Source: Kastovskya adunca ATA6-11-RM4 (GTDB taxonomy: Bacteria; Cyanobacteriota; Cyanobacteriia; Cyanobacteriales; Coleofasciculaceae). From it: DNA of 64,000 nucleotides. A program made the position numbers and the translations under genes. The notes beneath the pieces were generated by a model. That model did not search any database. It was given only the letters and a program-made list of their open reading frames with translations, and was not told where the DNA came from. This document shows, piece after piece, positions 32,798 to 56,507 of the stretch. Position 1 is the stretch's first letter; every line of letters begins with the position of its first letter. The DNA lies in the NCBI GenBank assembly GCA_019359445.1, contig JAHHHJ010000019.1, positions 38,393-102,392 on the forward strand, in the 5' to 3' direction.

Positions 32798-34618
32798 ATG
32801 CAAGTCGGAGCAAATTATCTAGGTGACGGTCGTTGTGAGTTTACCGTCTGGGCACCACTGCTGGATAGTGTTGCGGTGCAAGTCGTATCTCCCGAACAAC
32901 GAGCGATCCCCATGGAGAAGCAGGAGTGGGGGTACTGGAAAGCGATCGCCCAAGACATCGAACCAGGAACAGCGTACTTCTACAAACTCAATGGAGAAAC
33001 GGATCGACCCGATCCCGCCTCTCAATTTCAACCCAATGGTGTACATGAAGCCTCAGCCGTAGTTGACCATAGCACTATGCAATGGACAGACCAGCAGTGG
33101 TCGGGGGTTCCCTTAGAGGAGATGATTATCTATGAGCTGCATGTAGGGACGTTTACTCCCGAAGGCACCTTTGAGGCAATCATCCCCCGCTTAAAAGAGC
33201 TGTATGAGTTTGGGGTGAATGCGATTGAGATTATGCCCGTGGCACAATTTCCCGGCAGCCGCAACTGGGGCTACGATGGCGTCTATCCCTATGCCGTGCA
33301 AGATTCCTACGGCGGGCCAGAAGCCTTAAAAAAACTGGTTGACGCGGCGCACCAGCAGGGAATGGCAGTGATTCTGGATGTGGTGTACAACCACTTCGGG
33401 CCAGAAGGCAACTACATCAGCCAATTCGGGCCATACTTTACAGATACCTATCGCACACCTTGGGGTAGTGCAATCAATTTTGACGATGCCTACAGCTATG
33501 GGGTGCGGAATTACTTTATTGAAAATGCCCTTTATTGGTTCCGAGACTATCACTTTGATGCCTTACGCTTAGATGCTATCCATGCTATCTACGACCTAGG
33601 AGCAAAGCACCTCTTGCAGGAACTAGGAGAGGATGTTGCCGCCCTTTCCGAAGAAAAAGGTAGAAAGCTTCATTTAATTGCCGAAAGCGATCTCAACGAC
33701 GTTCGCGTTATTCGTCCGCCTGAGTTAGGCGGTCATGGAATGGATGCTCAGTGGAGTGATGATTTTCACCATGAAATTCACACCCTACTGACCGAGGAAC
33801 GAATTGGATACTATCAGGATTTTGGGCAATGTGAGCACCTTGCCCAAGCCTACAAAAATAGTTTTGTCCACTCTTGGGACTATTCAAACGCCCGCAAGCG
33901 ATATCACGGTAGTGATGCTAGCGATCGCCCCGGTCAACAATTCGTCGTTTGCACCCAAAACCACGACCAAGTTGGTAATAGAATGCTGGGTGAAAGATTA
34001 TCTCACCTAGTTCATTTTGAAGGCTTAAAACTTGCCGCCGGAGCCTTATTACTTTCTCCCAATATTCCCCTGATATTTATGGGAGAAGAATATGGAGAAG
34101 ATGCCTACTTCCTTTACTTCGTCAGCCATAGCGATCCCGGCTTAGTTGAGGCAGTACGAGAAGGACGCAAACGAGAATTTGCCGACTTTCACTTAGAAGG
34201 AGAATACTCAGATCCCCAAAGCGCTGAAACCTTCAACAAATCCAAACTAAACTGGGAATCTCGTCAAGAAGGCAAACATAAAGCATTGTTTGATTTGTAT
34301 CAACACTTAATTCAACTGCGTCGCACAAACCCCGTCTTAAAACAGTTGGACAAGCAGAACTTAGAAGCTTCCGCAATGGAGGACAAGAAATTAATGTTTC
34401 TGCATCGCTGGAATGAAGACAGCCAGATTTTCTGCATCATGAACTTCAAGCAAGAAAGTGTCACATTTGCACCTCAGCTTCCTCAAGGTAACTGGAGCAA
34501 AATCCTCGATTCCTCAGAAGAAAAATGGATGGGTGCAGGTTCACAAATGCCAGAACAACTAACCCCCGAACAACAACTAACAATTCAGCCTCAGAGTTTT
34601 GCCCTTTACCAAGGGTAA
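32798..34618 (+). CDS. treZ: malto-oligosyltrehalose trehalohydrolase
   Basis: 606 residues, typical length. It releases free trehalose from the end of maltooligosyltrehalose produced by TreY, in the cytoplasm. An N-terminal E-set beta domain (GRCEFTVWAPLLDSVAVQVV, 11-30) precedes a GH13 barrel. Catalytic residues fall at DALRLDAIHAIYD (nucleophile Asp259), LIAESDLND (acid Glu296) and TQNHDQVGNR (Asp390). The IHAI sequence after the nucleophile is characteristic of TreZ rather than of GlgB. treY follows 279 bp downstream on the same strand. That gap holds a strong hairpin without a T run. Confidence 0.95.
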   Translation: MQVGANYLGDGRCEFTVWAPLLDSVAVQVVSPEQRAIPMEKQEWGYWKAIAQDIEPGTAYFYKLNGETDRPDPASQFQPNGVHEASAVVDHSTMQWTDQQWSGVPLEEMIIYELHVGTFTPEGTFEAIIPRLKELYEFGVNAIEIMPVAQFPGSRNWGYDGVYPYAVQDSYGGPEALKKLVDAAHQQGMAVILDVVYNHFGPEGNYISQFGPYFTDTYRTPWGSAINFDDAYSYGVRNYFIENALYWFRDYHFDALRLDAIHAIYDLGAKHLLQELGEDVAALSEEKGRKLHLIAESDLNDVRVIRPPELGGHGMDAQWSDDFHHEIHTLLTEERIGYYQDFGQCEHLAQAYKNSFVHSWDYSNARKRYHGSDASDRPGQQFVVCTQNHDQVGNRMLGERLSHLVHFEGLKLAAGALLLSPNIPLIFMGEEYGEDAYFLYFVSHSDPGLVEAVREGRKREFADFHLEGEYSDPQSAETFNKSKLNWESRQEGKHKALFDLYQHLIQLRRTNPVLKQLDKQNLEASAMEDKKLMFLHRWNEDSQIFCIMNFKQESVTFAPQLPQGNWSKILDSSEEKWMGAGSQMPEQLTPEQQLTIQPQSFALYQG

Positions 34619-34648
34619 ACCATTGATGTAGAGTGCCAATAAATCCTG

Positions 34649-34681
34649 CCTCTAACTCCCCTCATTCAGGGGGGTTAGAGG
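34649..34681. repeat. strong hairpin in the treZ-treY gap
   Basis: CCTCTAACTCCCC at 34649-34661 pairs with GGGGGGTTAGAGG at 34669-34681 around a short loop. No T tract follows, so it is not a clear terminator. Its C-run/G-run arms resemble the dispersed hairpin elements elsewhere in the window. Confidence 0.6.
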
Positions 34682-34897: not shown

Positions 34898-37693
34898 ATG
34901 CGAATTCCAGCAGCAACATATCGAATTCAATTTCATGTTGGCTTTAACTTTGAAGCCGCAAAAAAAATTGTTCCCTACCTTTCAGAATTAGGAATTTCTG
35001 ACCTTTATGCCTCACCTATCTTCAAGGCAACAGAAGGAAGCACCCACGGTTATGATGTAGTCGATCCTACGGTACTTAATCCAGAATTAGGAACACCCGA
35101 AGATTTTAAGGTATTAGTCCAGGAACTTCAACAGCGCCAAATGGGATGGTTGCAGGACATTGTCCCCAACCACATGGCATACGCTGGTCAAAACCAGATG
35201 CTAATGGACGTGCTAGAAAATGGGCCTGATTCTGAGTTTTTTGACTATTTTGATATTGCCTGGGATCAGTCTTATGAAGATAGACGCGGACGCGTCCTCG
35301 CCCCTCTACTAGGAAACTTTTATGGCGACAGTTTAGAAAACGGTGAAATTCAGCTTCAGTATGATCAAACAGGATTAAGTGTTAATTACTATAATCTGAG
35401 ATTACCAATCAGAATTGAATCCTACGTCCAGTTCCTTACCCATGAACTAGGAAAGTTAGCGAGAACTCTAGGCAGACAGCATCCCGATTTTGTTAAATTA
35501 CTGGGGATTCTCTATCTCCTCAAAAATCTTCCTAGTGAAACTAAAGGGAGAGAACGCTACGATCACATTGCTTTTGTTAAAGGGCTTTTGTGGGAACTTT
35601 ACACCCAAAATCCTGCCGTTGAAGAATTTATTCAACATAATATCGAAACTTTTAATGGAGAATCTGGGAATTCTAAAAGCTTCGATCTTCTAGATAGTCT
35701 GCTTTCAGATCAGTTTTATCGTCTTGCTTTTTGGAAGGTTGGGGCTGAAGAAATTAATTACAGACGATTCTTCACTGTTAACGAGTTAATTTCGGTAAAG
35801 GTTGAAGAACTTAAGGTATTTAATAAAACTCACTCCTTGATCAGCCAACTTGTTGAAGAAGGAGCTATAACAGGTTTACGTATTGACCACATTGATGGAT
35901 TGTACGACCCTACTCAATACCTAGAACGTCTCAGAGAAAAGATGGGAGATGTTTACATCACTGTCGAAAAAATTCTTGAACTGGATGAACAGTTACCAAA
36001 CTTTTGGCCAATTCAAGGAACCAGCGGTTACAACTTCTTAAATTATGTCAATGGCATTTTTTGTAAAAGTGTGAATGAGGAAAGGATGAGGTCAATTTAT
36101 GCCCAATTCACAAACTTAGATGCACCTTACGAAGAGCTGGTTAAACAAAAGAAAGCTTTGATTGTTGAGAAGAATTTAGCAGGCGATGCTGATAATTTAG
36201 CCCAATTATTAAAGCGGATTTCCGGTCAAACCCGAGGCGGTAGTGACTTTACACAATACGGATTGAAGCGAGCGCTGGTTGAGATTTTAACGCTCTTCCC
36301 AGTTTACCGGACTTATGTCAACGAAGATGGTTTAGACGAATCAGATCGTCAGTATGTACAAGCGGTGATTGCCAAAGCTAGGGAAGATTTACCGCTACTG
36401 TCAAAAGAGCTTGATTATATCGAAGAGATTCTTTTGCAGAAAAACGGAGAGCCTTTAACCTCAGAACAAAAAGCAGAACGGCTTCACTTTGTTATGCGAA
36501 TGCAGCAGCTAACGGGCCCGTTGATGGCAAAGGGAGTAGAAGACACGCTTTTGTATGTCTACAATCTGCTGTTATCGCTAAATGAAGTGGGCGGAAATCC
36601 CGGTCATTTTGGTCTACAACCTGCTGATTTTCATGCCTTTAATCAGACCAGAAAAACTCATTGGTCTCAGGCGATGAGTGCAACGTCCACTCATGACACC
36701 AAACGCGGAGAAGATGCCAGAGCGAGAATCAATATCCTTTCGGAAATTCCTGATGAGTGGGAAACTCAGGTAAGAACTTGGAGCGAACTTAATCGCCAGT
36801 TTAAAAAACTAACTAAGAATCGGGCGATTCCTAGCAGTAACGATGAGTATTTCCTTTATCAAACATTAATCGGTGCTTTTCCGTTTGATGAGCGCGAATA
36901 TCCCGAATTTATTACTCGTGTCAAAGATTACATGATCAAGGCAGTCAGAGAAGCCAAGGTTTATACCGCTTGGCTACGTCCAGATAATGAATATGAAGAA
37001 GGGTTCATCAGCTTTGTAGAATCCATTTTGCAGCCTTCGGAGCAAAATCAGTTTTTGGAAAAATTTAGACCGTTCCAGAAGGTAGTTGCTGATTATGGGA
37101 TCTACAATTCTCTTTCCCAAATTTTGCTAAAAAACATGGCTGTGGGTGTTCCCGATCTCTATCAGGGAACGGAGTTGTGGGATTTGAGTATGGTTGACCC
37201 CGATAATCGGCGTCCGGTAGATTATGAACAGCGGGTTGCGTTTTTGCAAGACATCAAAGAAAAGGCGCAACAAGACATTTTGAAGCTGGTTAATGAGCTA
37301 CTTTCTACGAAAGAAGATGGCAAGATTAAGTTGTTTTTGACTTACAAGGTGCTACAGGCAAGAAATGAAAATATGGAGCTTTTCCTCAAGGGTGACTATT
37401 TGCCCCTGAAGGTGGTTGGCAAGTTTCAAGATTGTATTGTGGCGTTTGCTAGACAAGTGGGGGATAAAGTAGCCATTACTGTTGCGCCTAGATTACTCAC
37501 AAGTCTAGTAAATCCGGGAGAACGACCCCTCGGCGACGTGTGGGAAGATACCGCTATTCAACTCCCAGCGGGAATGCCGTCAGTTTGGAAAGATGCGATC
37601 GCGGCTCAAACTCTGCAAGGAAACGAGGCTATACCCGTCAGTGAGGTGTTGAAGAATTTTCCTGTGGCGCTACTATTTGGTCAAAGCAATTAG
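34898..37693 (+). CDS. treY: malto-oligosyltrehalose synthase
   Basis: 931 residues. TreY converts the reducing-end maltose unit of a linear alpha-1,4-glucan into a trehalosyl end by intramolecular transglucosylation. The start RIPAATYRIQFHVGFNFEAA and the motifs LGISDLYASPIFKATEGSTHGYDVVDP are family hallmarks. The catalytic site is visible as GLRIDHIDGLYDP (Asp330), YITVEKIL (Glu357) and SATSTHDTKRGEDARAR near residue 610. It works with TreZ, whose gene is directly upstream. AGGAG precedes the ATG, and an intrinsic terminator follows the stop. Confidence 0.96.
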   Translation: MRIPAATYRIQFHVGFNFEAAKKIVPYLSELGISDLYASPIFKATEGSTHGYDVVDPTVLNPELGTPEDFKVLVQELQQRQMGWLQDIVPNHMAYAGQNQMLMDVLENGPDSEFFDYFDIAWDQSYEDRRGRVLAPLLGNFYGDSLENGEIQLQYDQTGLSVNYYNLRLPIRIESYVQFLTHELGKLARTLGRQHPDFVKLLGILYLLKNLPSETKGRERYDHIAFVKGLLWELYTQNPAVEEFIQHNIETFNGESGNSKSFDLLDSLLSDQFYRLAFWKVGAEEINYRRFFTVNELISVKVEELKVFNKTHSLISQLVEEGAITGLRIDHIDGLYDPTQYLERLREKMGDVYITVEKILELDEQLPNFWPIQGTSGYNFLNYVNGIFCKSVNEERMRSIYAQFTNLDAPYEELVKQKKALIVEKNLAGDADNLAQLLKRISGQTRGGSDFTQYGLKRALVEILTLFPVYRTYVNEDGLDESDRQYVQAVIAKAREDLPLLSKELDYIEEILLQKNGEPLTSEQKAERLHFVMRMQQLTGPLMAKGVEDTLLYVYNLLLSLNEVGGNPGHFGLQPADFHAFNQTRKTHWSQAMSATSTHDTKRGEDARARINILSEIPDEWETQVRTWSELNRQFKKLTKNRAIPSSNDEYFLYQTLIGAFPFDEREYPEFITRVKDYMIKAVREAKVYTAWLRPDNEYEEGFISFVESILQPSEQNQFLEKFRPFQKVVADYGIYNSLSQILLKNMAVGVPDLYQGTELWDLSMVDPDNRRPVDYEQRVAFLQDIKEKAQQDILKLVNELLSTKEDGKIKLFLTYKVLQARNENMELFLKGDYLPLKVVGKFQDCIVAFARQVGDKVAITVAPRLLTSLVNPGERPLGDVWEDTAIQLPAGMPSVWKDAIAAQTLQGNEAIPVSEVLKNFPVALLFGQSN

Positions 37694-38222: not shown

Positions 38223-39275
38223 ATGAAGCGTAGGAAATTCTTGACGTTTGTAGGACTAGCAGCGATCGCAGGTAGTTTAGTCGTTGCCTGTAATGGGGAA
38301 CCCACTGCAACCAACCCTTCTCCTGGAAATCCCGCTAGTCCTGCGGCGACAGGAGAGGAATTGACGATCTACTCCGGTCGTAATGAAGAACTGATTGGCC
38401 CCCTATTAAAGAAGTTTGAAGCGGAAACCGGAACTAAGCTCAACGTGCGTTATGGCGATACAGCAGAGCTAGCGGCAGCAATTTTGGAGGAAGGTCAAAA
38501 TAGTCCTGCGGATATCTTCTTTGGTCAAGATGCCGGGGCATTAGGGGCGCTGCAAACAGAAAATCGCACCCAAGCTTTACCCGACACAGTTCTCAACAAA
38601 GTCGATCAGCGCTTCCGTTCCCCTGAAGGGGAGTGGGTAGGAATTTCAGGTCGCGCTCGCGTGCTAGCCTACAATACCCAAGAGATTAACGAGAACGAAC
38701 TGCCCAATTCTATCTGGGACTTGACGGAGGAGAAGTGGCGCGGTCGAGTGGGTTGGGCACCGACGAATGGGTCATTTCAGGCGTTTGTCACAGCGCTGCG
38801 GGAGATAGAAGGGGAAGAGCGTGCCCTAGAGTGGCTCAGAGCAATGAAGGCGAATGGGACTCAATCTTATAAAAACAATACAACCATCATCGAAGCGGTT
38901 GGTCGTGGAGAAGTCGAAATTGGTTTAGTGAACAACTACTATCTGCCTCGCTTCAAGGCAGAAAACCCAAACCTTCCGGTTGCCCATCATTACACCCAAG
39001 AGGATGCTGGGTCGATGATCAACGTGGCAGGGGTCGCTCTCCTCGATGCTAGTGACAATGAGGAGCAAGCGATCGCCTTGGTTGAGTATCTGCTCATGCC
39101 GGAGTCTCAACAGTACTTTGCCAACGAAACTAACGAATATCCCCTAATTCAAGGCGTTGCCCCTTCGGAGGGTCAGGTGCCCCTCGCTGAAATCAATTCC
39201 CCAGGAATCGACCTAAGTAACCTCGAAGACCTCGAAGGCACCCTATCACTACTCCAGAAAGCTGAAGTGTTGTAA
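38223..39275 (+). CDS. futA: ferric iron ABC transporter substrate-binding protein (FutA type)
   Basis: 350 residues. The binding protein captures Fe(III) in the periplasm and passes it to FutB. The N terminus has a twin-arginine-like KRRKFLTF, a hydrophobic core and the lipobox LVVAC, so it is probably a lipoprotein that may use Tat export. A Pro/Ser/Thr linker leads to the family-1 binding fold starting LTIYSGRNEELIGPLLKKFE, with the conserved FFGQDAGALGAL and the Tyr-rich VNNYYLPRF, a usual iron-ligand site. futB follows 79 bp downstream on the same strand, past a terminator-like hairpin. No ATPase (futC) is in the window. Confidence 0.92.
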   Translation: MKRRKFLTFVGLAAIAGSLVVACNGEPTATNPSPGNPASPAATGEELTIYSGRNEELIGPLLKKFEAETGTKLNVRYGDTAELAAAILEEGQNSPADIFFGQDAGALGALQTENRTQALPDTVLNKVDQRFRSPEGEWVGISGRARVLAYNTQEINENELPNSIWDLTEEKWRGRVGWAPTNGSFQAFVTALREIEGEERALEWLRAMKANGTQSYKNNTTIIEAVGRGEVEIGLVNNYYLPRFKAENPNLPVAHHYTQEDAGSMINVAGVALLDASDNEEQAIALVEYLLMPESQQYFANETNEYPLIQGVAPSEGQVPLAEINSPGIDLSNLEDLEGTLSLLQKAEVL

Positions 39276-39286
39276 CCTAGAAAGCC

Positions 39287-39340
39287 GCAACAAACAATTA
39301 ACAGCACATTCTGTGTTGAGCGTTTGTTGCTCCTTTTTCT
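39287..39340 (+). terminator. intercistronic hairpin between futA and futB
   Basis: GCAACAAAC (39287-39295) and GTTTGTTGC (39322-39330) pair perfectly around a partly paired interior and are followed by TCCTTTTTCT. It would let the binding protein mRNA exceed that of the permease. Confidence 0.65.
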
Positions 39341-39354
39341 GACTCCATGTTGTA

Positions 39355-40989
39355 GTGTCAAATCAAGCATCACGTCCCGATAAAGCGACCCAAGTCGTGC
39401 GGGGAAAGTCTCGGGTAGCTAGACCTCCCCTGTTCCTTGTGGTGATGGGCACAATTACCGCCACTGCCATTGCCCTACCCTTGGCCTACCTCGTTATCCG
39501 GGCGCTGGGAATCGGTGGGGCGGAATTTTGGGCATTTGTGGCGCGAGAGCGCACGCTCGAAATTGTTTTCAATAGCATCGTTATGGCAGTGGCGGTGACC
39601 TGTTTATCGGCTCTGATTGCCATACCCCTCGCCTTCTTAACCGTTCGCACCGACCTACCCTGGCGGCGGTTTTGGTCGATTGTCACCACCTTGCCCCTAG
39701 CGATCCCCACCTACGTGGGCAGCTTTGCCCTGATTGCCGCCTTCGGGCCTAGGGGCAGCTTGTTGCAGTCCTGGCTTGCCCCTCTAGGCGTGGAGCAACT
39801 GCCTTCGATTTATGGATGGCCGGGGGTGATTGCCGCCATTACCCTCTTTTCCTACCCCTACCTGCTCTTGAGCGTCCGGGCTGGTCTTCAGGGAATTGAC
39901 CCGGCACTAGAAGAATCGGCTCAGAGCTTGGGTTATGGTTCTTGGTCTGTGTTTTTTAGCGTCACCCTGCCCCAATTACGACCCTCAATTGTGGCGGGTT
40001 CACTGCTGGTTTCCCTGTACGCGCTTCAAGACTTCGGGACTCCGTCGTTGATGCGGTTTGACTCCTTTACGCAGGCAATTTTTATCCAGTACCGTGCCAG
40101 TTTTAACCGCAGTCTTGCCGCCGCCTTAGCGTTGATGTTGGTGGTTTTGGTGCTGATTATTCTCTGGTGGGAGCATCAGGCGCGATCGCGGGCAACTTAC
40201 TACAGCCGAGGATCAAACTCGAGGCGATCGCGCCAACTAGTACCCTTGGGTCGCTGGAAACTTCCCGCCCTGGCATTTTGCTGTCTGGTGATGGGAATAT
40301 GTCTGATTTTACCCTTGGGAATAATCCTGTACTGGCTACTGCGATCGGCAACCCCTCTACAGGCTTTACACAATGTCATTCCCCTGACGTTGAATTCTGC
40401 CTGGGCCGCAGGACTCGCTGCCCTATTTTCTACCCTGTTTGCCTTGCCTGTGGCAATTTTGTCCGTACGGTTTCCAGGACGCCTGACCACGATGATAGAA
40501 CGCGGTACCTACATCGGTTTTGGTCTACCGGGGGTCGTTGTCGCTCTATCCTTAGTGTTTTTTGGTGCTAACTATCTACCTTGGCTCTACCAGACAATGC
40601 CGATGCTGGTCTTTGCTTATCTGGTGCTATTTTTGCCCCAATCGGTTGGTACTGTCCGGAGTTCCCTGCTGCAAGTCAACCCATCAATAGAAGAATCTGC
40701 CCGTTCTTTAGGGCGAACTTCCTGGCAGACTCTCAAGGAAGTAACAATCCCCTTAGTACGCTCCGGAATCGCCAGTGGAGCCGTGTTGATTTTTCTGACT
40801 GCGATTAAGGAACTGCCTGCAACGCTGCTGTTGTCGCCGATTGGTTTTAGAACCTTAGCCTCACAGATTTGGGTAGCAACAAGCGACGCCGTGTTTGCCG
40901 ATGCAGCAGCGGCGTCTCTAGCAATGCTGTTGCTGTGTGCCGGACTCACCTTAGTAGTGATCTCTCTAGAACGACACCGCCGCAAATGA
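39355..40989 (+). CDS. futB: ferric iron ABC transporter permease (FutB type)
   Basis: 544 residues from GTG. A two-fold permease of the plasma membrane with about 12 hydrophobic segments in two homologous halves. Each half carries the ABC permease contact loop: EESAQSLGYGSWSVFFSVTLP in the first and EESARSLGRTSWQTLKEVTIP in the second. This fused duplicated form is the usual cyanobacterial/bacterial Fe(III) permease. Partner of FutA; the ATPase must be encoded elsewhere. Its stop codon directly abuts the stop of the convergent glgX gene, with no intergenic base. Confidence 0.93.
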   Translation: MSNQASRPDKATQVVRGKSRVARPPLFLVVMGTITATAIALPLAYLVIRALGIGGAEFWAFVARERTLEIVFNSIVMAVAVTCLSALIAIPLAFLTVRTDLPWRRFWSIVTTLPLAIPTYVGSFALIAAFGPRGSLLQSWLAPLGVEQLPSIYGWPGVIAAITLFSYPYLLLSVRAGLQGIDPALEESAQSLGYGSWSVFFSVTLPQLRPSIVAGSLLVSLYALQDFGTPSLMRFDSFTQAIFIQYRASFNRSLAAALALMLVVLVLIILWWEHQARSRATYYSRGSNSRRSRQLVPLGRWKLPALAFCCLVMGICLILPLGIILYWLLRSATPLQALHNVIPLTLNSAWAAGLAALFSTLFALPVAILSVRFPGRLTTMIERGTYIGFGLPGVVVALSLVFFGANYLPWLYQTMPMLVFAYLVLFLPQSVGTVRSSLLQVNPSIEESARSLGRTSWQTLKEVTIPLVRSGIASGAVLIFLTAIKELPATLLLSPIGFRTLASQIWVATSDAVFADAAAASLAMLLLCAGLTLVVISLERHRRK

Positions 40990-43131
40990 TTAAGAGGTGG
41001 GGAGTCCTCGCATCTGGCGCAGCACCAGAATTGATCGCGCTACCACGGGTATCAATTGATTGCCTGTATAAACCTTCTCCTCAGTGAGGAAGCGAGGCTC
41101 TTTGGTGTCAATCACAACCGCCCATTCTCTCTCATCTAGCCCAGCGGGGAGGCCAAACTCAATCATTTCATAGTGAGCGTTAAAGAACAGGAAGAAACTA
41201 TCATCGCTAATGCGCTCGCCTTTTGGCCCCACAGTAGGAATCTCGTCTCCATTCAAGAAAACGCCAATCGCCTTAGCATAACCGATGTCCCATTGCTCCT
41301 GAGTCATCGCGGTGCCGTCGGGATTGAACCAACCGATATCGCTAACACCCGAACCGTGGATGGCGCGACCTTGAAACCACTTGCGCCGTCGAAATACCGG
41401 ATGCTGACGGCGGAAGTAGATTAGTTCGCGGGTAAAGTTCAGTAGATCCGCATTTCCCTCTGGCAAATTCCAATCAAACCAAGAGAGTTCATTGTCCTGG
41501 CAATAGGTATTATTGTTGCCTTCTTGTGTACGCCCCATCTCATCACCCCCCAGCAGCATCGGGATGCCCTGAGAGAGCATCAGAGTCGCCAGGAAGTTTC
41601 GCCGCTGCTTCTCCCGCAACAGCAACACTTTTACGTTATCCGTTTCCCCTTCAACTCCACAATTCCAACTTCGGTTGTGGTTTTCCCCATCCTGGCTATT
41701 TTCCCCATTCGCCTCGTTATGCTTCTCGTTGTAGCTAACCAAATCGTTGAGGGTGAAGCCATCGTGGGCGGTGATGAAGTTGATACTGGCATTCGGTCTA
41801 CGCCCATTCACCTCATAGAGGTCAGGGCTACCTGTGAAGCAGTAGGCAAATTGCCCCAATCCACTCTCCTCGCCGCGCCAGAAGTCCCGCACGGTATCGC
41901 GATACCTGCCATTCCACTCTGACCAGAGGAGCGGGAAGTTTCCGACTTGATAGCCACCTTCTCCCACGTCCCAGGGTTCAGCAATGAGCTTCACATCTGC
42001 CAGCACTGGGTCTTGGTGAATGATGTCAAAGAACGCCGCTAGGCTATCCACTTCAAAGAGTTCTCGTGCTAGGGCTGAGGCAAGATCGAAGCGGAAGCCA
42101 TCGACATGCATCTCTGTGACCCAGTAGCGCAGGCTATCCATGATTAACTTCAGGACTTGGGCTTGGCGCACATACAACGAGTTTCCGCAGCCTGTAAAGT
42201 CCATGTAGTAACGCGGATCGTCTTCCATCAGGCGGTAGTAAACAGCGTTGTCGATGCCGCGCAGTGTCAGGGTTGGGCCTAAGTGACTACCTTCTCCGGT
42301 GTGGTTGTAGACGACATCGAGGATCACTTCGATTCCGGCGAAGTGCAACGCTTTGACCATCTCCTTGAACTCGATGACCTGCTGACCTGACCCTCCACTG
42401 GCGCTGTAGCCGGAGTAGGGGGCTAAGTAGTTAATGGAATCATAGCCCCAGTAATTGCTGAGTTCTTTGTCAACGAGGTGTCCAGGACGGGAGAGGAAGT
42501 GATGCACCGGGAGCAACTCAACGGCGGTAATCCCAAGGGATTGCAGATAAGAAATTGCCGCCGAATGCCCCAGTCCGGCATAGGTACCGCGCAGTTCTTC
42601 TGGGATCTCCGGGTGCAGCTTGGTAAAACCCTTGACATGGGTTTCGTAGATTACTGTTTCATGCCACGCCGTTTTCAGTAATTTGTCATCCCCCCAATCA
42701 AAGGACTGATCGACGACAACCGACTTGGGGATCAGATGAGCGTCATCGAGATCGGACATGGATAGGTCTTCTTCGGAAGCGTCCCAAGAGTAGCCAAAGA
42801 GTTCTTCACCGTAGCCAATTTCCCCATCAATTGCTTTTGCATAGGGGTCAATCAGCAATTTGTTGGGGTTGAAGCGATGACCTGACTCCGGCGCATAGGG
42901 GCCATGCACTCGGTATCCGTAACGTTGACCCGGTGCCACCCCCGGCACATAACCGTGCCAGACGAAGTTGTTGACTTCAGTTAGGGACAAGCGTGTCTCC
43001 TCATCGTCTTCGTCAAACAAACAAAGTTCTACGCCTGTTGCATTTTCACTGAACAAAGCGAAGTTTGTCCCTTTGCCATCCCAATTTGCTCCCAAAGGAT
43101 AGACATCGCCAGGCCAGAGTGCATAGTACAT
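40990..43131 (-). CDS. glgX: glycogen debranching enzyme (isoamylase type)
   Basis: 713 residues. Cleaves alpha-1,6 branches of glycogen, giving linear chains that TreY or phosphorylase can use. A CBM48-like N-terminal domain (LGANWDGKGTNFALFSENAT) precedes the GH13 barrel with the GlgX signatures DGFRFDLASALARE (nucleophile Asp349), KLIAEPWDVGEGGYQVGNFP (acid Glu385) and ITAHDGFTLNDLVSYNEKHN (Asp457). The sequence LWSEWNGRYRD is typical of GlgX/isoamylase. It faces futB tail to tail with no spacer and lies 950 bp from the next gene. Confidence 0.96.
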   Translation of the reverse strand: MYYALWPGDVYPLGANWDGKGTNFALFSENATGVELCLFDEDDEETRLSLTEVNNFVWHGYVPGVAPGQRYGYRVHGPYAPESGHRFNPNKLLIDPYAKAIDGEIGYGEELFGYSWDASEEDLSMSDLDDAHLIPKSVVVDQSFDWGDDKLLKTAWHETVIYETHVKGFTKLHPEIPEELRGTYAGLGHSAAISYLQSLGITAVELLPVHHFLSRPGHLVDKELSNYWGYDSINYLAPYSGYSASGGSGQQVIEFKEMVKALHFAGIEVILDVVYNHTGEGSHLGPTLTLRGIDNAVYYRLMEDDPRYYMDFTGCGNSLYVRQAQVLKLIMDSLRYWVTEMHVDGFRFDLASALARELFEVDSLAAFFDIIHQDPVLADVKLIAEPWDVGEGGYQVGNFPLLWSEWNGRYRDTVRDFWRGEESGLGQFAYCFTGSPDLYEVNGRRPNASINFITAHDGFTLNDLVSYNEKHNEANGENSQDGENHNRSWNCGVEGETDNVKVLLLREKQRRNFLATLMLSQGIPMLLGGDEMGRTQEGNNNTYCQDNELSWFDWNLPEGNADLLNFTRELIYFRRQHPVFRRRKWFQGRAIHGSGVSDIGWFNPDGTAMTQEQWDIGYAKAIGVFLNGDEIPTVGPKGERISDDSFFLFFNAHYEMIEFGLPAGLDEREWAVVIDTKEPRFLTEEKVYTGNQLIPVVARSILVLRQMRGLPTS

Positions 43132-45648: not shown

Positions 45649-45953
45649 ATTAGTTTTTTCTTTGCTCAAGTGAACTGTATGCGAATGTCACTGACTTGAG
45701 TGGACAATGGTTGTTTTTGGGAAAAACCCAGCTTGGGGGGCTTCCCCCCAATCCCCCCACTCTTGGGATGAGTGCCTCCCCCAGACCCCCTGCACAAGGT
45801 TTAATCTGTTGTGATTTCTTACATTCAGTGACTTTGAACTATTTACCTTGCCTGGTTGGGCGATATATATGTACTCTAGCGTACATAACAAAAAAAATTA
45901 GGGGCGAACCTTGGTTCGCCCCTAATCCGATAAAACGACTATTTAATTGGATA
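45649..45953. other. 300-bp region between glgB and the CheB gene
   Basis: Contains G/C-run repeat DNA at about 45725-45805 (GGGGGGCTTCCCCCCAATCC and relatives), the glgB terminator, and a chance-level GTAN8TAC match at 45871-45884. No ORF accepted. Confidence 0.5.
45890..45926 (-). terminator. intrinsic terminator of the glgE-treS-glgB unit
   Basis: A 14-bp perfect stem, ATTAGGGGCGAACC (45897-45910) with its complement after a TT loop (45913-45926). On the minus strand it is followed by a run of eight T (45890-45897). It lies 28 bp downstream of the glgB stop. Confidence 0.9.
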
Positions 45954-47876: not shown

Positions 47877-47884
47877 AACTAAAT

Positions 47885-50800
47885 TTAAGATCCTTGTGGT
47901 TTCCAATTGCTTAACGCGGAAGACTCTAATAACTGGAGAATCCGCTTCAGGGGAATATCTACCCAATCTGGGCGATTATTCAGTTCGTAGCCCAACTCAT
48001 AAATTGACTTCTCAAACAGATAAGCATCGAGAAGTACTTGCAACTCTTGGTTAGTCTTGGGGATGAATGAGGCATCGCTGGCTGTTGCTAGATAAGTATT
48101 CATGTAGGTGTTACTTACCCACTCAAACCAGAACTGCGACCATTGCTCCATCACTTGTTGGTTGTCGGGGCGAATCAGTCCGTTTTCGACTTCATTGCGG
48201 AACGCCAGGGTGATGGCGTAGTTGAAGGATTGCAACATTCCGGCAACATCCCGCAGGGGCGATCGCTTCATCCGTCGTTCACCTAAAGGACGGGCGGGTT
48301 CTCCCTCGAAGTCAATAATGATAAAGTCTTTACCCGTAAACAGCACTTGTCCGAGGTGGTAGTCTCCATGACAGCGGATTCGCATTGCCGTGATCTTTTG
48401 ATTCACCAAGGCTTTGAAGCGATCCATAATCTGCTCGTGGCGATTGAGAATCGTCTGCGCCAACTGTTGCGTCTCCGGTGGGAGTACGTCCAGCCGCTTT
48501 TTCAACAACAGCAATACCTGCCCGGTGAGGTTACGCATGTACTGATAAATCGAGCGCTGGTAGAACGAGGAAAACGCCTCTGGGGCAAAGTTAGGATTTT
48601 CCGTATCTGACGCTAAGGCAAGATGCAGTTCGGCTGTGCGCTGTGCCAAGAGTTCGGTACTACTTAAGTAGTTAGCGATCGCGTCGTAACCAATCGGGGG
48701 ATTTTCTGCATTCGGCTGCCCGCTTAGAGCTTCTGAGGGAAGTTGTATCTGCTGCAACTGCTCTTCGGGCAGTAGCATCACATGCTCGAAGTAATCCCGT
48801 AGACCATCAAGGGTGTAAGACCAAGCATCTCTGGTATCTGGGATAAATTCTTGTAATATCCCCAGAGTTATCATGCCCCCGTCTGAGGTGCGGTACTCTA
48901 AGGCACCTGCAACTGCCGCAAAGTGTTCTAAGACTTTTTTCTCGGTCAGGAAGCGTCCGATTTCTAGATCGGGGTTAATACCTTCTTCAACTTTGCGGAA
49001 CAGTTTGAGGATCAGGCGATCGCCATAATTGATCGAAGAATTGCTCTGTTCGCCCCGTAGCAGCGATGGCTCTAAGTGCGTCCCATTGAGACCCATGTTT
49101 TTGAGTACATCAGTAGACAGGGTTACTAAGTCCCCATGCTTCCCGGAGAACTTATGATGGTGGGCGATCGCCTCTAAGGGAATATTCAAAAAGTCCTTAT
49201 CAAAGAGAGCCTCGTACAGCACGCCACCCGTGTCTTGTCCTCGAATTTGGATGTTAGCCACCCCGTGCTCGTATTGAGCGCCGACCTGTTCGCTTCCCAC
49301 CGCTTCTTCCCCATAAGCTAGTGGCAACATATAAGTTTCGGGATCGCCTTCGGTGTACTCCACCTGTAGCAGCACCAAGTAGCCTTTATCTTCCTTGAAA
49401 GGCACAGGGATGGTTTCTCTGATATGGGTAGAGCGAATCTTCCGCGCCTTACCCCCAAACCAGCGACAGCTATAGAGATAATCTGCCAAGATCGACTCCA
49501 TCGTCGTTTTCGCTTCTGAGGCAGAAAATACCGTTTCCCAGCGGTCATTAACCACCACCGGGGAATGGGGTTTGTAAGTTTGAGGCATTTGCAGTTCTGC
49601 AGCTTGCGCCTGGAGGGTGAACCAATAAAAGGCGTGGGGGCCAAGGCTGAGGAAGTAAGGCTCCTCGCTGATTTCTGGAAACTCGGTACGACCAAAAATC
49701 TCAACTGGTTTCATGCCCGAAAAGGCGGATAAATCGACCTCTACTGCTTGGATAAAGCGGGACAAGTTCGCCACCACCAAGATATGTTCTCCGGCGTAGG
49801 TGCGCGTGAAGGCAAGCACTTTGCGATTTTCTGGGTGCAAAAATTCAAAGCTGCCGCGACCGAAGGCTTGGAAGCGCTGGCGGATGCCCAACATGCGTTT
49901 TGTCCACCACCAGAGGGAGTTGGAGTTGGCTTGTTGCGTCTCGACGTTAACGGCTTCGTAGTGATGTTCCGGATCGATAATTACCGGGAGATAAAGCTTT
50001 TGGGGATTGGCGCGACTAAAGCCGGCGTTGCGGTCTGCACTCCACTGCATCGGCGTGCGGACACCATTGCGATCGCCTAGATAAATGTTATCTCCCATGC
50101 CGATTTCATCCCCGTAGTAAATCACGGGGGTGCCGGGGAGAGCCAGCAATAGACAATTCATCAACTCAATTTGGTTGCGGTTACTCGCCATCAAGGGAGT
50201 GAGTCGGCGGCGAATCCCCAAATTGATTCTTGCCTGGGTATCTTTGGCATAGACCCGATACATATAGTCTCGGTCTTCATCGGTGACCATTTCCAGGGTC
50301 AGTTCATCATGGTTCCGCAAAAACAGCGCCCACTGACAGTTATCCGGAACCTGGGGAGTCTGCTGGATAATATCAATGAGGGGAAAACTATCCTCCATTT
50401 TCAGCGCCATGAATAGCCGAGGCATCAAGGGGAAATGGAAGTTCATGTGACACTCATTCCCTTGACCGTAATACTCAGCGGCATCTTCGGGCCACTGATT
50501 TGCCTCCGCTAGGAGCATCCGGTTGGAGAATTTTTCGTCTACATGCGATCGCATTTGCTTCAGAAACTCATGGGTTTCTGGCAGGTTCTCGCAATTCGTC
50601 CCCTCTCGTTCGTACAGATAGGGCACCGCATCCATACGTAGCCCATCAACTCCCATTCCTAACCAGAAATCGAGGACATCGAATACCGCTTCGCGCACCG
50701 CTGGATTATCGTAGTTAAGATCCGGCTGGTGAGAATAAAAGCGATGCCAGTAGTAAGCCTTGGCAACCGGGTCCCAAGCCCAGTTAGACGTCTCGAAATC

Positions 50801-51253
50801 TTGGAAGATAATTCGAGCTTCTTTGTACTTATCGGGAGTGTCACTCCAGACATAAAAATCCCGCTCCGGACTGCCCTCAGGGGCGAGGCGTGCTCGCTGA
50901 AACCAAGGATGCTGGTCGGAGGTATGGTTGATGATTAATTCAATAATTACGCGGATGCCCCGTTGGTGGGCAGCCTCTAAAAATTCTTTAAAATCATCTA
51001 ATGTCCCGTAAATCGGGTTGACGTTGTGATAGTCAGAAATATCGTAGCCATCATCCCGCAGGGGCGACGGAAAAAAGGGTAACAACCACACAGCGGTGAT
51101 GCCCAAATCTTGCAGGTAATCTAGCTTTCCAGTCAGTCCCCGAAAGTCACCAATACCATCACCATTGCTATCGGCAAAAGCGCGAACTGGCGCTTCGTAG
51201 ATAATGGCATCTTTAAACCACAGGGGATCGTCGTTCAGCATCAAGTTTGTCAT
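47885..51253 (-). CDS. treS: trehalose synthase/maltokinase fusion (TreS-Mak)
   Basis: 1122 residues, a fusion. The N-terminal GH13 part (about 1-550) is TreS, interconverting trehalose and maltose: [20 protein letters not shown], then [14 protein letters not shown] (nucleophile Asp208), [11 protein letters not shown] (acid Glu250) and [10 protein letters not shown] (Asp316). The C-terminal part (about 595-1110) is a maltokinase, phosphorylating maltose with ATP to maltose-1-phosphate: [13 protein letters not shown], the catalytic loop [12 protein letters not shown], the metal-binding IDFEGEP and [10 protein letters not shown]. In many actinobacteria these are two proteins; fusions are known. 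It lies between glgE (upstream, 100 bp) and glgB (8 bp). Confidence 0.96.
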
Positions 51254-51353: not shown

Positions 51354-53312
51354 TTACTGTTTGAGCCAGAAAACATGAGCCGGAATTGCCCGAGGATCTA
51401 GCTCCACATAGTTGCGATCGCCTGACCAGGTATAGTGGGCATCATTGAGCATGTCGTGAAGCTGGTAAGGCTGGTAAGGGTAGATCCCCAAGGATTCTAG
51501 GGGCAAACTCACCCAACCCGATTGAGTATTGTAGGGGTCAAGGTTCACAATCATCAGCATCACATCAGAGGAATCCTCCGTTTGCTTGCTGTAACAGATA
51601 ATCTGCTCGTTATCAGTGGTGTGAAATTTCAAGCTACCGTCACTTTGCAATGCCGGATGTTTGTGACGAGCTTGATTCACCCGTGCAACCAAATACTTGA
51701 TGCTGTAAGGGCTATTTAAATCCCAATCCCGGATTTGATACTTCTCCGAGTTCAGATACTCTTCGCTTCCTGGCTTCAGCGCCCGGTTTTCACAAACCTC
51801 AAAAGCTGGGCCATAAATCCCGTAGCTCGCTCCCAAGGTGCCAGCGAGAACCAATCTGATTTTAAACGCCGCTTGCCCCCCATGTTGGAGAAACTTATGC
51901 AAAATGTCGGGAGTGTTGGGCCAAAGGTTGGGGCGAAAGAACTGATGAACTTTGGTCTGCGTCAGTTCTGTGAAATACTCGGTCAGCTCCCACTTTGCCG
52001 TGCGCCAAGTGAAATAAGTATAAGACTGGGTGAATCCCATCTTTCCTAAGCGATACATCACCTTGGGACGGGTGAAAGATTCTGACAGGAAAAGCACCTC
52101 CGGATGGGTTTGCTTGACTTCCTCAATCATCCACTCCCAAAACGGAAAGGCTTTGGTATGAGGATTGTCCACTCGAAAGATTTTTACTCCCCGGTCAACC
52201 CAAAACAGCACGACGCTTTTTAGTTCTTCCCAAAGGTTCTGCCAGTCTTCGGTTTCAAAATCAATCGGGTAAATGTCTTGATACTTCTTAGGCGGGTTTT
52301 CAGCGTACTGAATCGTACCATCAGGTCGATGCTTAAACCACTGGGGATGCTCCTTTACATAAGGATGATCCGGCGTGCATTGATAAGCTAAGTCTAAGGC
52401 AATCTCCATCCCGTACTCTTGGGCTTTGCGAACTAACTGCTGGAAATCTTCTAAAGTACCGAGTTTGGGGTGAACCGATTTGTGTCCTCCCTCAGAGGAG
52501 CCAATGCCCCAAGGCACTCCCACATCATCGGGTTCGGCAGTCGTGGTATTGTTTTTACCTTTGCGAAAGGTATAGCCAACGGGATGAATGGGCGGTAGGT
52601 AGAGGACATCAAAGCCCATTTCAGCAACATAGGGCAAGTGCTCGATACAGTCTATGAGCGTGCCGTGCTGTCCTGGTGCGCCGCAGGAGCGAGGAAACAG
52701 TTCGTACCAGCTACTAAAGCGGGCTTTCTCCCGATCTACGGTAATTTTGAGTTCTTTTTCGTAACTTGTTGCCAATTCCCGGTCGGGGTACTGAGTCATG
52801 AGAGCAATTCGCTCCTCTGACAGGGTTTGCATGTAGGGAATGTCTGCACCCTCTTTTTGCTGAGAACGGATAGTCATCGCCCAGTTTTTCAACTGTTCAG
52901 CATCTTGACCCGACGCCCGCTGACTTCCTTGCTCGATCAGTTCTGCACCTACGAGCCAATCTAGGGACACATCTTGCCCCGCCTCAATTTTCTTAATGAT
53001 GTCTCGTCGCCAAGACTTAAAGTGGTCAACCCAACCCATAACGGTGTAGACATAGCGACCCATCTCGGAAACGGTGAATTCCCCTTGCCAGCGGTCGTTG
53101 ACGAGGGGAGACAGCGGCGCTTCTAGCCACTGTTGGGATGTTTCCGGACGATACAAAATGACGCCAGAAATCGCATCATGGCTATCGCAGAACATATCGA
53201 CTTCCACCCGGACTTCCTCTCCGACTGTCCGTTTGATGGCAAAACGACCGCCGTTGATTTCTGGTGAGACTTCTTCAATCTGGACTCTTTTTCTCCCTTC
53301 AGTAGGCAGCAT
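51354..53312 (-). CDS. glgE: alpha-1,4-glucan:maltose-1-phosphate maltosyltransferase
   Basis: 652 residues from ATG 53312; GTG 53321 is in frame but only 3 bases from the GGAG. GlgE transfers maltosyl units from maltose-1-phosphate to growing alpha-1,4-glucan, an alternative to the ADP-glucose route. The beginning (RFAIKRTVGEEVRVEVDMFCDSHD, GRYVYTVMGWVDHFKSWRRD) is the family's N-terminal domain. The barrel shows the GlgE nucleophile motif VKIFRVDNPHTKAFPFWEW (Asp382) and the acid motif FLSESFTRPKVMYRLGK (Glu411). Here it begins an apparent operon glgE-treS/mak-glgB, which fits the known pathway order. Confidence 0.96.
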   Translation of the reverse strand: MLPTEGRKRVQIEEVSPEINGGRFAIKRTVGEEVRVEVDMFCDSHDAISGVILYRPETSQQWLEAPLSPLVNDRWQGEFTVSEMGRYVYTVMGWVDHFKSWRRDIIKKIEAGQDVSLDWLVGAELIEQGSQRASGQDAEQLKNWAMTIRSQQKEGADIPYMQTLSEERIALMTQYPDRELATSYEKELKITVDREKARFSSWYELFPRSCGAPGQHGTLIDCIEHLPYVAEMGFDVLYLPPIHPVGYTFRKGKNNTTTAEPDDVGVPWGIGSSEGGHKSVHPKLGTLEDFQQLVRKAQEYGMEIALDLAYQCTPDHPYVKEHPQWFKHRPDGTIQYAENPPKKYQDIYPIDFETEDWQNLWEELKSVVLFWVDRGVKIFRVDNPHTKAFPFWEWMIEEVKQTHPEVLFLSESFTRPKVMYRLGKMGFTQSYTYFTWRTAKWELTEYFTELTQTKVHQFFRPNLWPNTPDILHKFLQHGGQAAFKIRLVLAGTLGASYGIYGPAFEVCENRALKPGSEEYLNSEKYQIRDWDLNSPYSIKYLVARVNQARHKHPALQSDGSLKFHTTDNEQIICYSKQTEDSSDVMLMIVNLDPYNTQSGWVSLPLESLGIYPYQPYQLHDMLNDAHYTWSGDRNYVELDPRAIPAHVFWLKQ

Positions 53313-53616
53313 GTATAGCACCGTCTCCTTTTACTTTGTTTCAAACAGCAACGGATAATCTCCGCTGACCCGATAGAATGGGTCTGCCTGAAAAGATTCT
53401 TAATGATATTGGACTAAAAAACATGAGTCTTTAGGTTTAAATAATTGATTTCCAGCGGCAAATAAAATTAAATCTTTTTAAAGGTTTGGTAAAGATTGCT
53501 ATTATCAACCTCTGACACAGATTACTTCCTGGTAAAGGCAGAGGTTTTAGAGCAGGCGGGTTTGCTATTGTCTCAGTCGGGTCATTCCTTCTAGACCCAA
53601 GGAGAAGCAAAAGTCT

Positions 53617-54345: not shown

Positions 54346-54375
54346 GCTGTCTTTCCCCATCGGGATGACAGCGAT

Positions 54376-54502
54376 CGGTTGATTAGACCTCTTGCAAAAA
54401 TGTACCAGACCCCTCCCCAACCCTCCCCTTAGTAAGGGGAGGGGGCAAGATTTCAAGTCTCCCCCCTTATTAAGGGGGGATTAAGGGGGGTCTATTGACC
54501 CA
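54376..54502. repeat. dispersed hairpin repeat, copy 2
   Basis: Begins GATTAGACCTCTTGCAAAAA and contains CCCTCCCCTTAGTAAGGGGA and CCCCCCTTATTAAGGGGGG hairpins before TCTATTGACC. Same organisation as the element at 19100-19235, in the reverse orientation. Confidence 0.75.
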
Positions 54503-54557
54503 CAACCCATAGGTGTGTAGGGACGCAAAGCTTGGTGTCCCTACCGAACACCCTTCC

Positions 54558-56507
54558 TCACGCTTCTCGTCCAGACGCCCATGTATCCCGCCACTTAACA
54601 GTTCCCTCACTGGCAATCACCCAGCGACGCGCGACGAGATTTTCTCGTAGGGGGGCTTTTCCTTCCCGCCACATGGCGTACTTATAAGCAATTGGCTTGC
54701 CGACACTTTCATCGAAGGGAATTTCTCCAAAACAGGTGTTGGTGTTGATGTATTCCAAGGGGTAAGCCTTAGCAATATCCCAGTTACCCAACTCCGGACA
54801 ATCTCCCGTTACTACAACGATTTCTCCTGGCTGCGTTTGGATGCCATTAAGTTGCACTCGTACAATGGTTTGTCCCTTTACCCGCTCCCCTACATGACTA
54901 AGGACAATGATTTGGTGGGAATCGAGTTCTAGGTTTGGGAGTTGCCCATCTATGACTTCATACTTGTTCCGCGTCATCACACAGGTATGTTCGCCGTCGG
55001 GTAACTCGGTATCGACGGCTTCTATTGTGACGGGTTCTCCCCGATTCATCGCCACAAAACAGCAAGAATCCCGATAACGCCGCACGTAACAGTAGACATC
55101 CGGCGTCAGATACTTTTGCCACTGGCTCCCCATAGAAACCGCTGGATTGAGTCGCCGCAAGCCTGAGAGTAAGCGAATATCCCGGTAAAGGGGTGATTCC
55201 GTGTCCCAAGATTCCATCATTGGGCGGTTGTAGGGGTCGTTGTTTCCGTAAGGGTTGTCGTCCCCATTGGTGTCATTGTGGAGATACTGTTCAGTACCGT
55301 AGTAGATGCAGGGGATACCGCGAGAAGTCATCAACAACGCGATCGCTAAATGCAACGCTTTCGGATCGGGATTTAGCGTCCCGAAGCGATGCACATCGTG
55401 ATTATCGATAAACGTAATCAGTTCTGTTGCCCCGCTGTAGCGATAATCTTGATCGAGAATATTTTGCACTAAGTGGAATCCGTCAGGGTCATAACTTCCT
55501 AATGCCAAGCGGATCGCCATACAAAGACCAAAATCTAAAAGGGTCATCCCAGAATCATTAGCAAATTCCACGGAGTCATTACTGGGATGACTATTAATCC
55601 ACTCACCAAAGATGAATACATCCGGTTTATGGCTTTGAATATCGGCATTAAATTCTTGCCAGAACCAGATCGGCATGTGCTTCACTGTATCGACGCGCAA
55701 GGCATCCACACCCCGGTCTAGCCATTGCTTAATCGCTGACTTAATGTAGTTGCGATACTCACTATTGTTTTCGTTGAATGTTGCCAGACCAGACAATTCG
55801 CAATTTTGCACCTGCCAGTCATCTTCCCAGTTTGTCACTTCACCATAATGGTGATACCAGTTATTTTTATCGTTGTTAAAGTCAGCAATTAACTCACCAT
55901 CGTCATAGAGGAGACCTTTTTTACCGCTAATATCGGGGCTACTGTGGTTACAAACGACATCCAGTATCAGCTTCATTTTTCGCTGATGCAACTCTTCAAT
56001 CAAACGGTCAAAAATGGTGTTTTTTGTTTCCTGGCTTTTATTAAGAGACGGTTCATCATCTTTATGAATGAAGCGAGGATTAATTCTTTTAAAGTCTTGC
56101 GTCCAATAGCCGTGAATTGCCGCACTTTCAATAAACAGGTCTTCAATTTGTTCAAATAAGGGAGTTAGCCAAATAGCCGTGACTCCTAAATTTTTTAAGT
56201 AGTCAAGTTTATCAATAATACCTTGCAGATCGCCGCCCCAATATTTTCCCCATTCTTGTTTTTCGGGGTCATAAAGTTCTGGATTAGGCCCTTCATTGTT
56301 TTCGGGATCGCCATCATAGAAGCGATCGACAACAACAAAGTAGATAGTTTCCTGCCGAAAGGCAATGTCTCTTGTGTAGAGAAACTCTAAATCGATATCG
56401 CTTTCTGGTTTAGTTTCCTCGATTAGTGTATTAAGTTCAGCTTCAACTTTTTCCTCTGTGACTTCGTATTGAGAAGAAGAGGATTGAGGGGAAGGTGTTG
56501 ATACCAT
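54558..56507 (-). CDS. cytoplasmic GH13 alpha-amylase-type enzyme with CBM20
   Basis: 649 residues. No signal peptide, so cytoplasmic. After an acidic 45-residue N terminus, the GH13 barrel starts ETIYFVVVDRFYDGD and has KLILDVVCNHSS, DALRVDTVKHMPIWFW (nucleophile Asp273), FIFGEW (acid Glu302) and FIDNHDVHRFG (Asp371). These resemble cyclodextrin glucanotransferase-type amylases. The C-terminal 100 residues (TIVRVQLNGIQTQPGEIVVV, with CPELGNWDIAKAYPL and a terminal WR block) form a CBM20 starch-binding domain. It probably acts on intracellular glucan granules, either hydrolysing or transglycosylating; specificity cannot be told from sequence. Confidence 0.93.
   Translation of the reverse strand: MVSTPSPQSSSSQYEVTEEKVEAELNTLIEETKPESDIDLEFLYTRDIAFRQETIYFVVVDRFYDGDPENNEGPNPELYDPEKQEWGKYWGGDLQGIIDKLDYLKNLGVTAIWLTPLFEQIEDLFIESAAIHGYWTQDFKRINPRFIHKDDEPSLNKSQETKNTIFDRLIEELHQRKMKLILDVVCNHSSPDISGKKGLLYDDGELIADFNNDKNNWYHHYGEVTNWEDDWQVQNCELSGLATFNENNSEYRNYIKSAIKQWLDRGVDALRVDTVKHMPIWFWQEFNADIQSHKPDVFIFGEWINSHPSNDSVEFANDSGMTLLDFGLCMAIRLALGSYDPDGFHLVQNILDQDYRYSGATELITFIDNHDVHRFGTLNPDPKALHLAIALLMTSRGIPCIYYGTEQYLHNDTNGDDNPYGNNDPYNRPMMESWDTESPLYRDIRLLSGLRRLNPAVSMGSQWQKYLTPDVYCYVRRYRDSCCFVAMNRGEPVTIEAVDTELPDGEHTCVMTRNKYEVIDGQLPNLELDSHQIIVLSHVGERVKGQTIVRVQLNGIQTQPGEIVVVTGDCPELGNWDIAKAYPLEYINTNTCFGEIPFDESVGKPIAYKYAMWREGKAPLRENLVARRWVIASEGTVKWRDTWASGREA

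Follow-up and report, generated by a model that had tools for sequence, protein, structure and literature searches.

The window analysed here, the whole 64,000-nucleotide stretch G000:C5:38393-102392 of the cyanobacterium Kastovskya adunca ATA6-11-RM4 (genome of 5.09 Mb in 37 contigs, 99.99% complete), carries a cluster of glucan and trehalose genes that includes glgE, encoding a maltose-1-phosphate maltosyltransferase, and a gene in which trehalose synthase (TreS) is fused to maltokinase (Mak). Profile searches placed treZ, treY, glgX, glgB, the treS-mak fusion, glgE and an amylase gene with GH13 and CBM20 domains within positions 32798–56507. An original prediction made from the sequence had put these seven enzyme genes in the same 24 kb; NCBIfam and Pfam profiles confirm them there, and its assignments and pathway logic are supported, the family cut-offs being passed. 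Five of the seven exceed curated NCBIfam cut-offs (six models), among them both enzymes of the TreY/TreZ trehalose pathway, and glgE and the CBM20 enzyme gene exceed those of Pfam (Table 1); the family scores lie so far above the cut-offs that chance matches are excluded. The GH13–CBM20 enzyme stays below every NCBIfam cut-off among the best 25 of its 34 matches, and inspection of its sequence by eye revealed no obvious signal peptide. The enzyme genes occupy both strands, the order of transcription on the minus strand being CBM20 enzyme, glgE, treS-mak and glgB. With its TTG start, the glgB open reading frame would share 82 bases with the end of treS-mak.

Table 1. Genes of the locus, with their positions in the window and the profile matches that identify them (bits, with cut-offs in brackets)
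Gene	Product	Positions	Strand	Matches and remarks
treZ	Malto-oligosyltrehalose trehalohydrolase	32798-34618	+	TIGR02402 755 (538.8)
treY	Malto-oligosyltrehalose synthase	34898-37693	+	TIGR02401 967 (498.65)
	ABC transporter substrate-binding protein	38223-39275	+	PF13343, PF13416; locus member by position only
	ABC permease	39355-40989	+	PF00528, two matched stretches; locus member by position only
glgX	Glycogen debranching enzyme	40990-43131	-	TIGR02100 1030.4 (640.9)
	CRP-family regulator, candidate regulator	44084-44815	+	PF13545, PF00027; between glgX and glgB
	CheB-methylesterase domain protein	44968-45669	-	Directly downstream of glgB
glgB	Branching enzyme	45954-47966	-	NF003811 988.7 (741); match starts at residue 49
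treS-mak	Trehalose synthase–maltokinase fusion	47885-51253	-	1122-aa open reading frame; TIGR02456 914.6 (678.35), TIGR02457 460 (375.05)
glgE	Maltose-1-phosphate maltosyltransferase	51354-53321	-	PF11896 GlgE N/S 191.4 (25), PF21702 GLGE_C 110.5 (27)
	GH13+CBM20 enzyme, amylase/cyclomaltodextrinase-like	54558-56507	-	PF00128 171.3 (22), PF00686 38.9 (23.3)

Residues 12–651 of the 655-residue GlgE align to the solved GlgE 3zss, a Streptomyces enzyme (E 1.6e-186). The motif RVDNPHTK, the glutamate of FLSESFTRP and the aspartate of TPDILH, all presumably catalytic, are conserved between the two. The TreS half of the fusion aligns to solved trehalose synthases in the PDB and keeps D208, E250 and D316, which we take, by motif, to be the catalytic triad; the C-terminal half aligns to solved maltokinases. 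All 14 of the nucleotide-, metal- and maltose-binding residues checked in the maltokinase half are intact, which places the protein in the intact group formed by genomes with GlgE; the common cyanobacterial form, with an essential kinase residue replaced, is not the form seen in the window. The window copy apparently represents a complete, working state, and would be the best evidence that sequence can offer for its GlgE route being in use.

A probable trehalose-fed route to branched glucan

Carbon storage in cyanobacteria is usually described as glycogen made from ADP-glucose, and the genes for that route lie elsewhere in this genome, GlgC on contig C16 (NF002772 755 bits, cut-off 537) and an ADP-glucose-type GlgA on contig C3 (TIGR02095 536 bits, cut-off 328.45). 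These two would build linear glucan from ADP-glucose, GlgX and, likely, the CBM20 enzyme would free linear ends, and TreY and TreZ would cut trehalose off them. TreS would convert the trehalose to maltose, the fused kinase would spend ATP to make maltose-1-phosphate, and GlgE would transfer the maltose to glucan, GlgB branching the product. The locus enzymes probably split trehalose off linear glucan and re-form branched glucan by way of maltose-1-phosphate in this manner, with GlgE as the required sink for that compound; the locus would thereby add a second, trehalose-fed glucan route beside GlgC and GlgA in a cyanobacterial genome. Gene content, gene order, residues, distribution and the association of GlgE with an intact kinase are observed; the enzyme activities, the direction of flux, toxicity as a selective force and any role in stress are inferred. 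Run together, the trehalose-making and glucan-rebuilding legs would form a futile cycle unless regulated. The reversible store envisaged in the original prediction is not borne out, the two directions being separate routes of which the return leg would spend ATP; a role of the locus under drying or salt, put forward with it, may be entertained.

No match to GT20 enzymes of the OtsA or GgpS type (GgpS being a GT20 enzyme) was found in the genome. The search for trehalases, which covered PF01204, yielded no convincing GH37 enzyme: the sole match scores 25.6 bits (cut-off 21) and lies in an open reading frame that Pfam matches best to GDE_N_bis and further glycoside hydrolase families, so that it looks like a debranching enzyme. 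With neither a GT20 enzyme nor a convincing GH37 trehalase, trehalose is likely to be supplied by TreY and TreZ and to leave through TreS-Mak and GlgE. A 552-residue open reading frame on contig 14, considered as a second TreZ, scores 221 against the cut-off of 538.8 and is only TreZ-like. A second, longer GlgB is encoded outside the locus. PF00343 has a single match in this genome (L140, 811-3390, minus strand), a TIGR02094-type alpha-glucan phosphorylase with DUF3417, far below the TIGR02093 cut-off.

Maltokinase residues in genomes with and without GlgE

GlgE and TreS-Mak were sought in a 386-genome sample of the phylum, in which small genomes from other classes than the window's are numerous, and in a 388-genome sample of the order. 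The GlgE N/S domain is present in 4/386 and 19/388 genomes, respectively; the predicted rarity of GlgE in cyanobacteria thus stands for the phylum and the order, but does not extend to the window's own family, in which 10 of 20 listed genomes have it. GlgE is already named by NCBI in Allocoleopsis, Coleofasciculus, Ancylothrix and Oculatella, and the nearest named relatives of the window copy include Coleofasciculus, Symplocastrum and Limnofasciculus. With TIGR02457 matches accepted to an E of 0.001, TreS-Mak proves commoner than GlgE in both samples, occurring in 25/386 (19 of these above the curated cut-off) and 120/388 genomes (92 above it); two weak partial matches (G446, G647) were dropped, leaving 118 from the order. 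TreY exceeds its cut-off in 46/386 phylum-sample genomes, including all 25 of those with TreS-Mak. Genomes with GlgE also have TreS-Mak in 4/4 and 18/19 cases, the exception (G515) being an assembly of 950 contigs that is 88% complete. Of the 25 phylum-sample genomes with TreS-Mak, 21 lack GlgE, and a whole-protein GlgE query gave short GH13 matches or none in them. Among the relatives, the treZ query matches about 1210 amino acids in neighbouring stretches in G465 and G404 (L100, L110-L111), which suggests tandem treZ copies, and in G332 (L150) treY is split over two adjacent open frames, suggestive of a frameshift or a split gene.

The order sample supplied 118, and the phylum sample a further three, of the 121 cyanobacterial TreS-Mak proteins whose kinase halves were scored by alignment, in the numbering of the Mycobacterium vanbaalenii maltokinase, most positions being checked by eye against alignments with solved maltokinases. 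Mutation of S136, N137, D322, K413, Y416 or Y420 abolishes or nearly abolishes the activity of maltokinase from M. vanbaalenii or M. tuberculosis (PMC4306142; the cited papers are represented here and below by excerpts). The 14-residue set consists of these six tested sites and eight active-site or supporting residues. Serine or threonine at 136 was scored as intact, and dropping K413 changes the class of no protein.

All 19 proteins from genomes with GlgE are intact at all 14 residues. Of the 102 from genomes without a GlgE match, 98 carry at least one change among the six tested residues and 99 at least one among the 14, and all 21 from genomes rechecked with the whole-protein query have a tested-site change. 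The lesions are diverse (D305N/A/K/Q, D322N/H, N137K/H/Y/D, S136D/K/R, E324G/K and changes at Y416 and Y420), and only 55 of the 102 are changed at N137, D305 or D322. Relatives without GlgE that carry such lesions include Kamptonema formosum (N137H and D305N) and Spirulina subsalsa (D305A among others). A tested-site lesion is present in every member of 36 of the 38 genera without GlgE, the other two being g190 and, through the single genome G643, g10. Residues are missing in five rows from genomes without GlgE, four of them partial open reading frames (G388, G437, G503, G533) and one a gap (G665). Inspection of the motif blocks in 33 chosen rows gave no impression of alignment slips behind the changes there. 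Of 26 named proteins chosen from 120 listed TreS-Mak relatives, 15 are lesioned and 11 are not; their GlgE status is known for some only, and they were left uncounted.

The TreS half does not share this fate. Its catalytic residues are intact in 123/123 rows (115 cyanobacterial and eight others). Nor is the Mak domain shortened in most cases, 97 of the 102 proteins without GlgE having at least 1000 amino acids. The pooled ratio of non-synonymous to synonymous substitution rates (dN/dS; own script) is 0.18 for the Mak half in 439 pairs without GlgE and 0.12 in five pairs with it, the pairs being non-independent and those with GlgE few; for the TreS half of the same pairs it is 0.047 and 0.041, respectively. 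The continued length of the Mak domain and its dN/dS of 0.18 suggest that it is probably kept for structure. In mycobacteria, the maltokinase docks on TreS (PMC6509496).

The invariance of the kinase residues in genomes with GlgE also bears on whether the locus is mainly a one-way maker of trehalose for drying or salt, by way of TreY, TreZ and TreS, with the kinase and GlgE as a minor overflow, a use that has been proposed for desert cyanobacteria. The 21 phylum-sample genomes that keep TreY and TreS-Mak but no GlgE fit such a use, as does a review in which the desiccation tolerance of Leptolyngbya ohadii is tied to treZY and a long TreS of 1127 amino acids (PMC9736550). Kinase and GlgE, though, would drain trehalose and not make it, and a minor overflow sits poorly with kinase residues held invariant wherever GlgE is present; we regard this explanation as unlikely.

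Probable loss of GlgE and the fate of the kinase

We know of no pathway in which maltose-1-phosphate is used by an enzyme other than GlgE. Loss of GlgE in cyanobacteria is likely to favour loss of the kinase activity, with TreS kept. Trees alone cannot separate gain from loss, but revival of a kinase that has accumulated several lesions is improbable, and glgE loci are the source of the non-cyanobacterial rows; together these points favour loss as the direction of change. In a further-reaching reading, to which we give a probability of about three in four, the cyanobacterial TreS-Mak kinase works only with GlgE; GlgE would have been lost in lineage after lineage, the active site would then have been disabled by differing substitutions, and the domain would persist in full length under purifying selection, a pseudokinase joined to a live TreS. 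A cost of unused product would be in line with a report on Escherichia coli, which formed no colonies after receiving a chlamydial TreS-Mak gene, the authors presuming maltose-1-phosphate to be the cause (PMC7935935).

Several points weigh against GlgE as the required sink. Deletion of glgE in Pseudomonas aeruginosa is viable and raises maltose-1-phosphate almost 8-fold (PMC8084333), so toxicity of the compound is not universal. Genus g190 (G460, G493 and the partial G503; L202, L230, L254) has no GlgE match and no lesion at the checked residues; either the loss is recent, or the gene was missed, or maltose-1-phosphate has another use there. G643, also without GlgE, is unchanged at the six tested sites, although it carries E324G and R334Q; it and the three g190 proteins are the four without a tested-site change. 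The initial set of eight residues classed 94 of 100 scorable proteins without GlgE as lesioned and left six unlesioned, the truncated G437 and G503 being unscorable; K413, Y416, Y420, R334, R342 and D343 were added after these exceptions had been seen, and the tyrosines explain four of the six. The absence of GlgE in 81 of the 102 genomes rests on one hidden Markov model search of partly draft genomes. A comparison at 57 Mak sites supports the sink reading, mean violation being 0.1% in the proteins with GlgE (leave-one-out) and 16.3% in 97 without; the sites, however, were chosen as invariant in 18 rows with GlgE and eight non-cyanobacterial rows, a choice that itself favours more changes in the other rows and for which the TreS half serves as control.

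The contrasts available for a test of independence are also few, which limits the case further. With the eight-residue set and 115 rows, five independent pairs lie on supported branches, of which on average 4.6/5 go the same way and none the opposite way (median sign-test p 0.0625). With the 14-residue set and 51 rows, one per genus and state, four pairs go the same way, none the opposite way and one is equal (p 0.125). At least six pairs would be needed to reach 0.05, so the association is strong in counts yet comprises few independent events.

The small number of pairs and a sign test short of 0.05 speak for shared ancestry or sampling in place of function, the genomes with GlgE then simply belonging to lineages in which the kinase has changed little. 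Such lineages, however, are not what the TreS trees depict: rows with and without GlgE interleave, with seven changes of GlgE state, and no pair runs in the opposite direction (rows shorter than 1000 amino acids, 6/121, were excluded from these trees: G565, G643, G388, G533, G503, G437). The lesions, moreover, differ among clades. The Mak halves at the 57 sites separate without overlap, the highest violation with GlgE (1.7%) lying below the lowest without (3.5%), and there is no comparable gap in the TreS half, where the same treatment of 183 sites gave 0.33% with GlgE and 0.60% without. Within one genus, g72, G330 has GlgE and an intact kinase whereas G175 has neither GlgE nor an intact N137, which is N137Y. 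Genus g144 also holds both states, but the TreS of its member without GlgE falls in another clade. Shared ancestry or sampling is, on this evidence, a very unlikely account of the association.

The relatives of the window genome amount to a natural experiment, in which a missing sink enzyme is accompanied by decay of the kinase upstream of it, and residue-level predictions follow as to which annotated 'maltokinases' are dead. If the further-reaching reading is true, many annotated maltokinases in cyanobacteria without GlgE would produce no maltose-1-phosphate, and the part in desiccation tolerance ascribed to the Mak domain would fall to TreS or to a structural role. The comparison also bears on a published account that ties the drying tolerance of desert cyanobacteria to the maltokinase domain (PMC9736550). 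The L. ohadii TreS described there resembles the proteins studied here in its 1127 amino acids with a maltokinase domain and in the treZY of its genome; it is not among the proteins examined, in which the kinase half is predicted to be inactive in most cyanobacteria without GlgE.

The locus type itself is already known. The open-licence papers found describe no such coupling between GlgE and the state of the kinase half, and none of them treats GlgE together with Microcoleus. In its GlgE, TreS, maltokinase and GlgB chemistry the window locus resembles the actinobacterial GlgE pathway of Mycobacterium and Streptomyces, with a near full-length GlgE match and conserved motifs. It differs in adding TreY, TreZ, GlgX and the CBM20 enzyme, in a genome that also has GlgC and GlgA, and in the fusion of TreS with Mak, which are separate proteins in mycobacteria (PMC6509496). 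According to one survey of bacterial storage compounds, the full GlgE pathway is largely confined to Actinobacteria (PMC6686919), and a gene list from a stream metagenome includes GlgE, in the part seen not tied to cyanobacteria (PMC8009434). The chlamydial glgE-treS-mak-glgB2 operon has the same order and the same fusion, both activities of which were assayed in vitro (PMC7935935), whereas the window copy is accompanied by TreY and TreZ and is known here from sequence.

The network of P. aeruginosa PAO1 likewise combines a three-gene cluster of glgE, fused treS/pep2 and glgB with treY, treZ and glgX, but has glgA and malQ in the treYZ cluster and no glgC, UDP-glucose being the suggested donor (PMC8084333). 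The window genome has both glgA and glgC, of ADP-glucose type, on contigs C3 and C16 and so departs from that arrangement. In P. aeruginosa, trehalose serves osmotolerance and GlgE-made glucan desiccation tolerance (PMC8084333, PMC11046441), and deletion of treS/pep2 raises trehalose and abolishes the GlgE-made glucan (PMC8084333).

Gene order, ancestry and neighbouring genes

In the window, glgE, treS-mak and glgB follow one another on one strand. Twenty other cyanobacterial glgE loci were examined, four of which have too little flank; the same tight one-strand order is present in 10 of the remaining 16, so the adjacency of glgE and treS-mak raised in the original prediction does recur in cyanobacteria. 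Order and strand are kept across a gap of about 8–13 kb in G195 and G409, glgE is followed by treS-mak without that glgB alongside in G530, G538 and G170, and the two genes lie on different contigs in G330. The tight order was also found in Chloroflexales, Nitrospirae, Bacteroidota and alphaproteobacterial loci. The core arrangement is therefore not special to the window genome and is known from other phyla.

A quick tree of GlgE was built from 64 rows, including 10 proteins added from 120 listed relatives; four rows with a best aligned stretch of fewer than 390 residues were dropped and five loci omitted as copies. The 25 cyanobacterial rows, the window among them, form one fully supported set together with the P0091 protein, while G330 stands apart beside a metagenome-assembled genome (MAG) of Chloroflexales (support 80). 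The nearest named non-cyanobacterial matches, among those listed, come from MAGs of Chloroflexota, Alphaproteobacteria and Thermodesulfobacteriota. An actinobacterial origin of GlgE, for which the original prediction had proposed looking, is not suggested by this tree, in which a single MAG represents the Actinomycetota and Streptomyces and Mycobacterium are absent. The cyanobacterial rows of the TreS trees fall together to one side of a branch with support. The GlgE on L041, a MAG contig labelled Synechococcaceae, groups with Competibacteraceae; the contig is probably mislabelled or misbinned and was not counted as cyanobacterial.

Interspersed among the enzyme genes of the window are an ABC transporter pair, a CRP-like regulator, a CheB-domain protein and a DUF3891 protein. 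The transporter pair (38223-40989) sits between treY and glgX, and genes about 40% similar to it adjoin glgB-glgE-treS-mak in L032 (bacterium Ww567). A 61% match to the CRP-family regulator over 93 amino acids lies between treS-mak and treY in G455 (L257), which suggests that the regulator may control trehalose genes. Adjacent genes for a di-haem oxidoreductase (DHOR) and an imelysin (M75) occupy 58949-61571 on the minus strand and are possibly metal-related.

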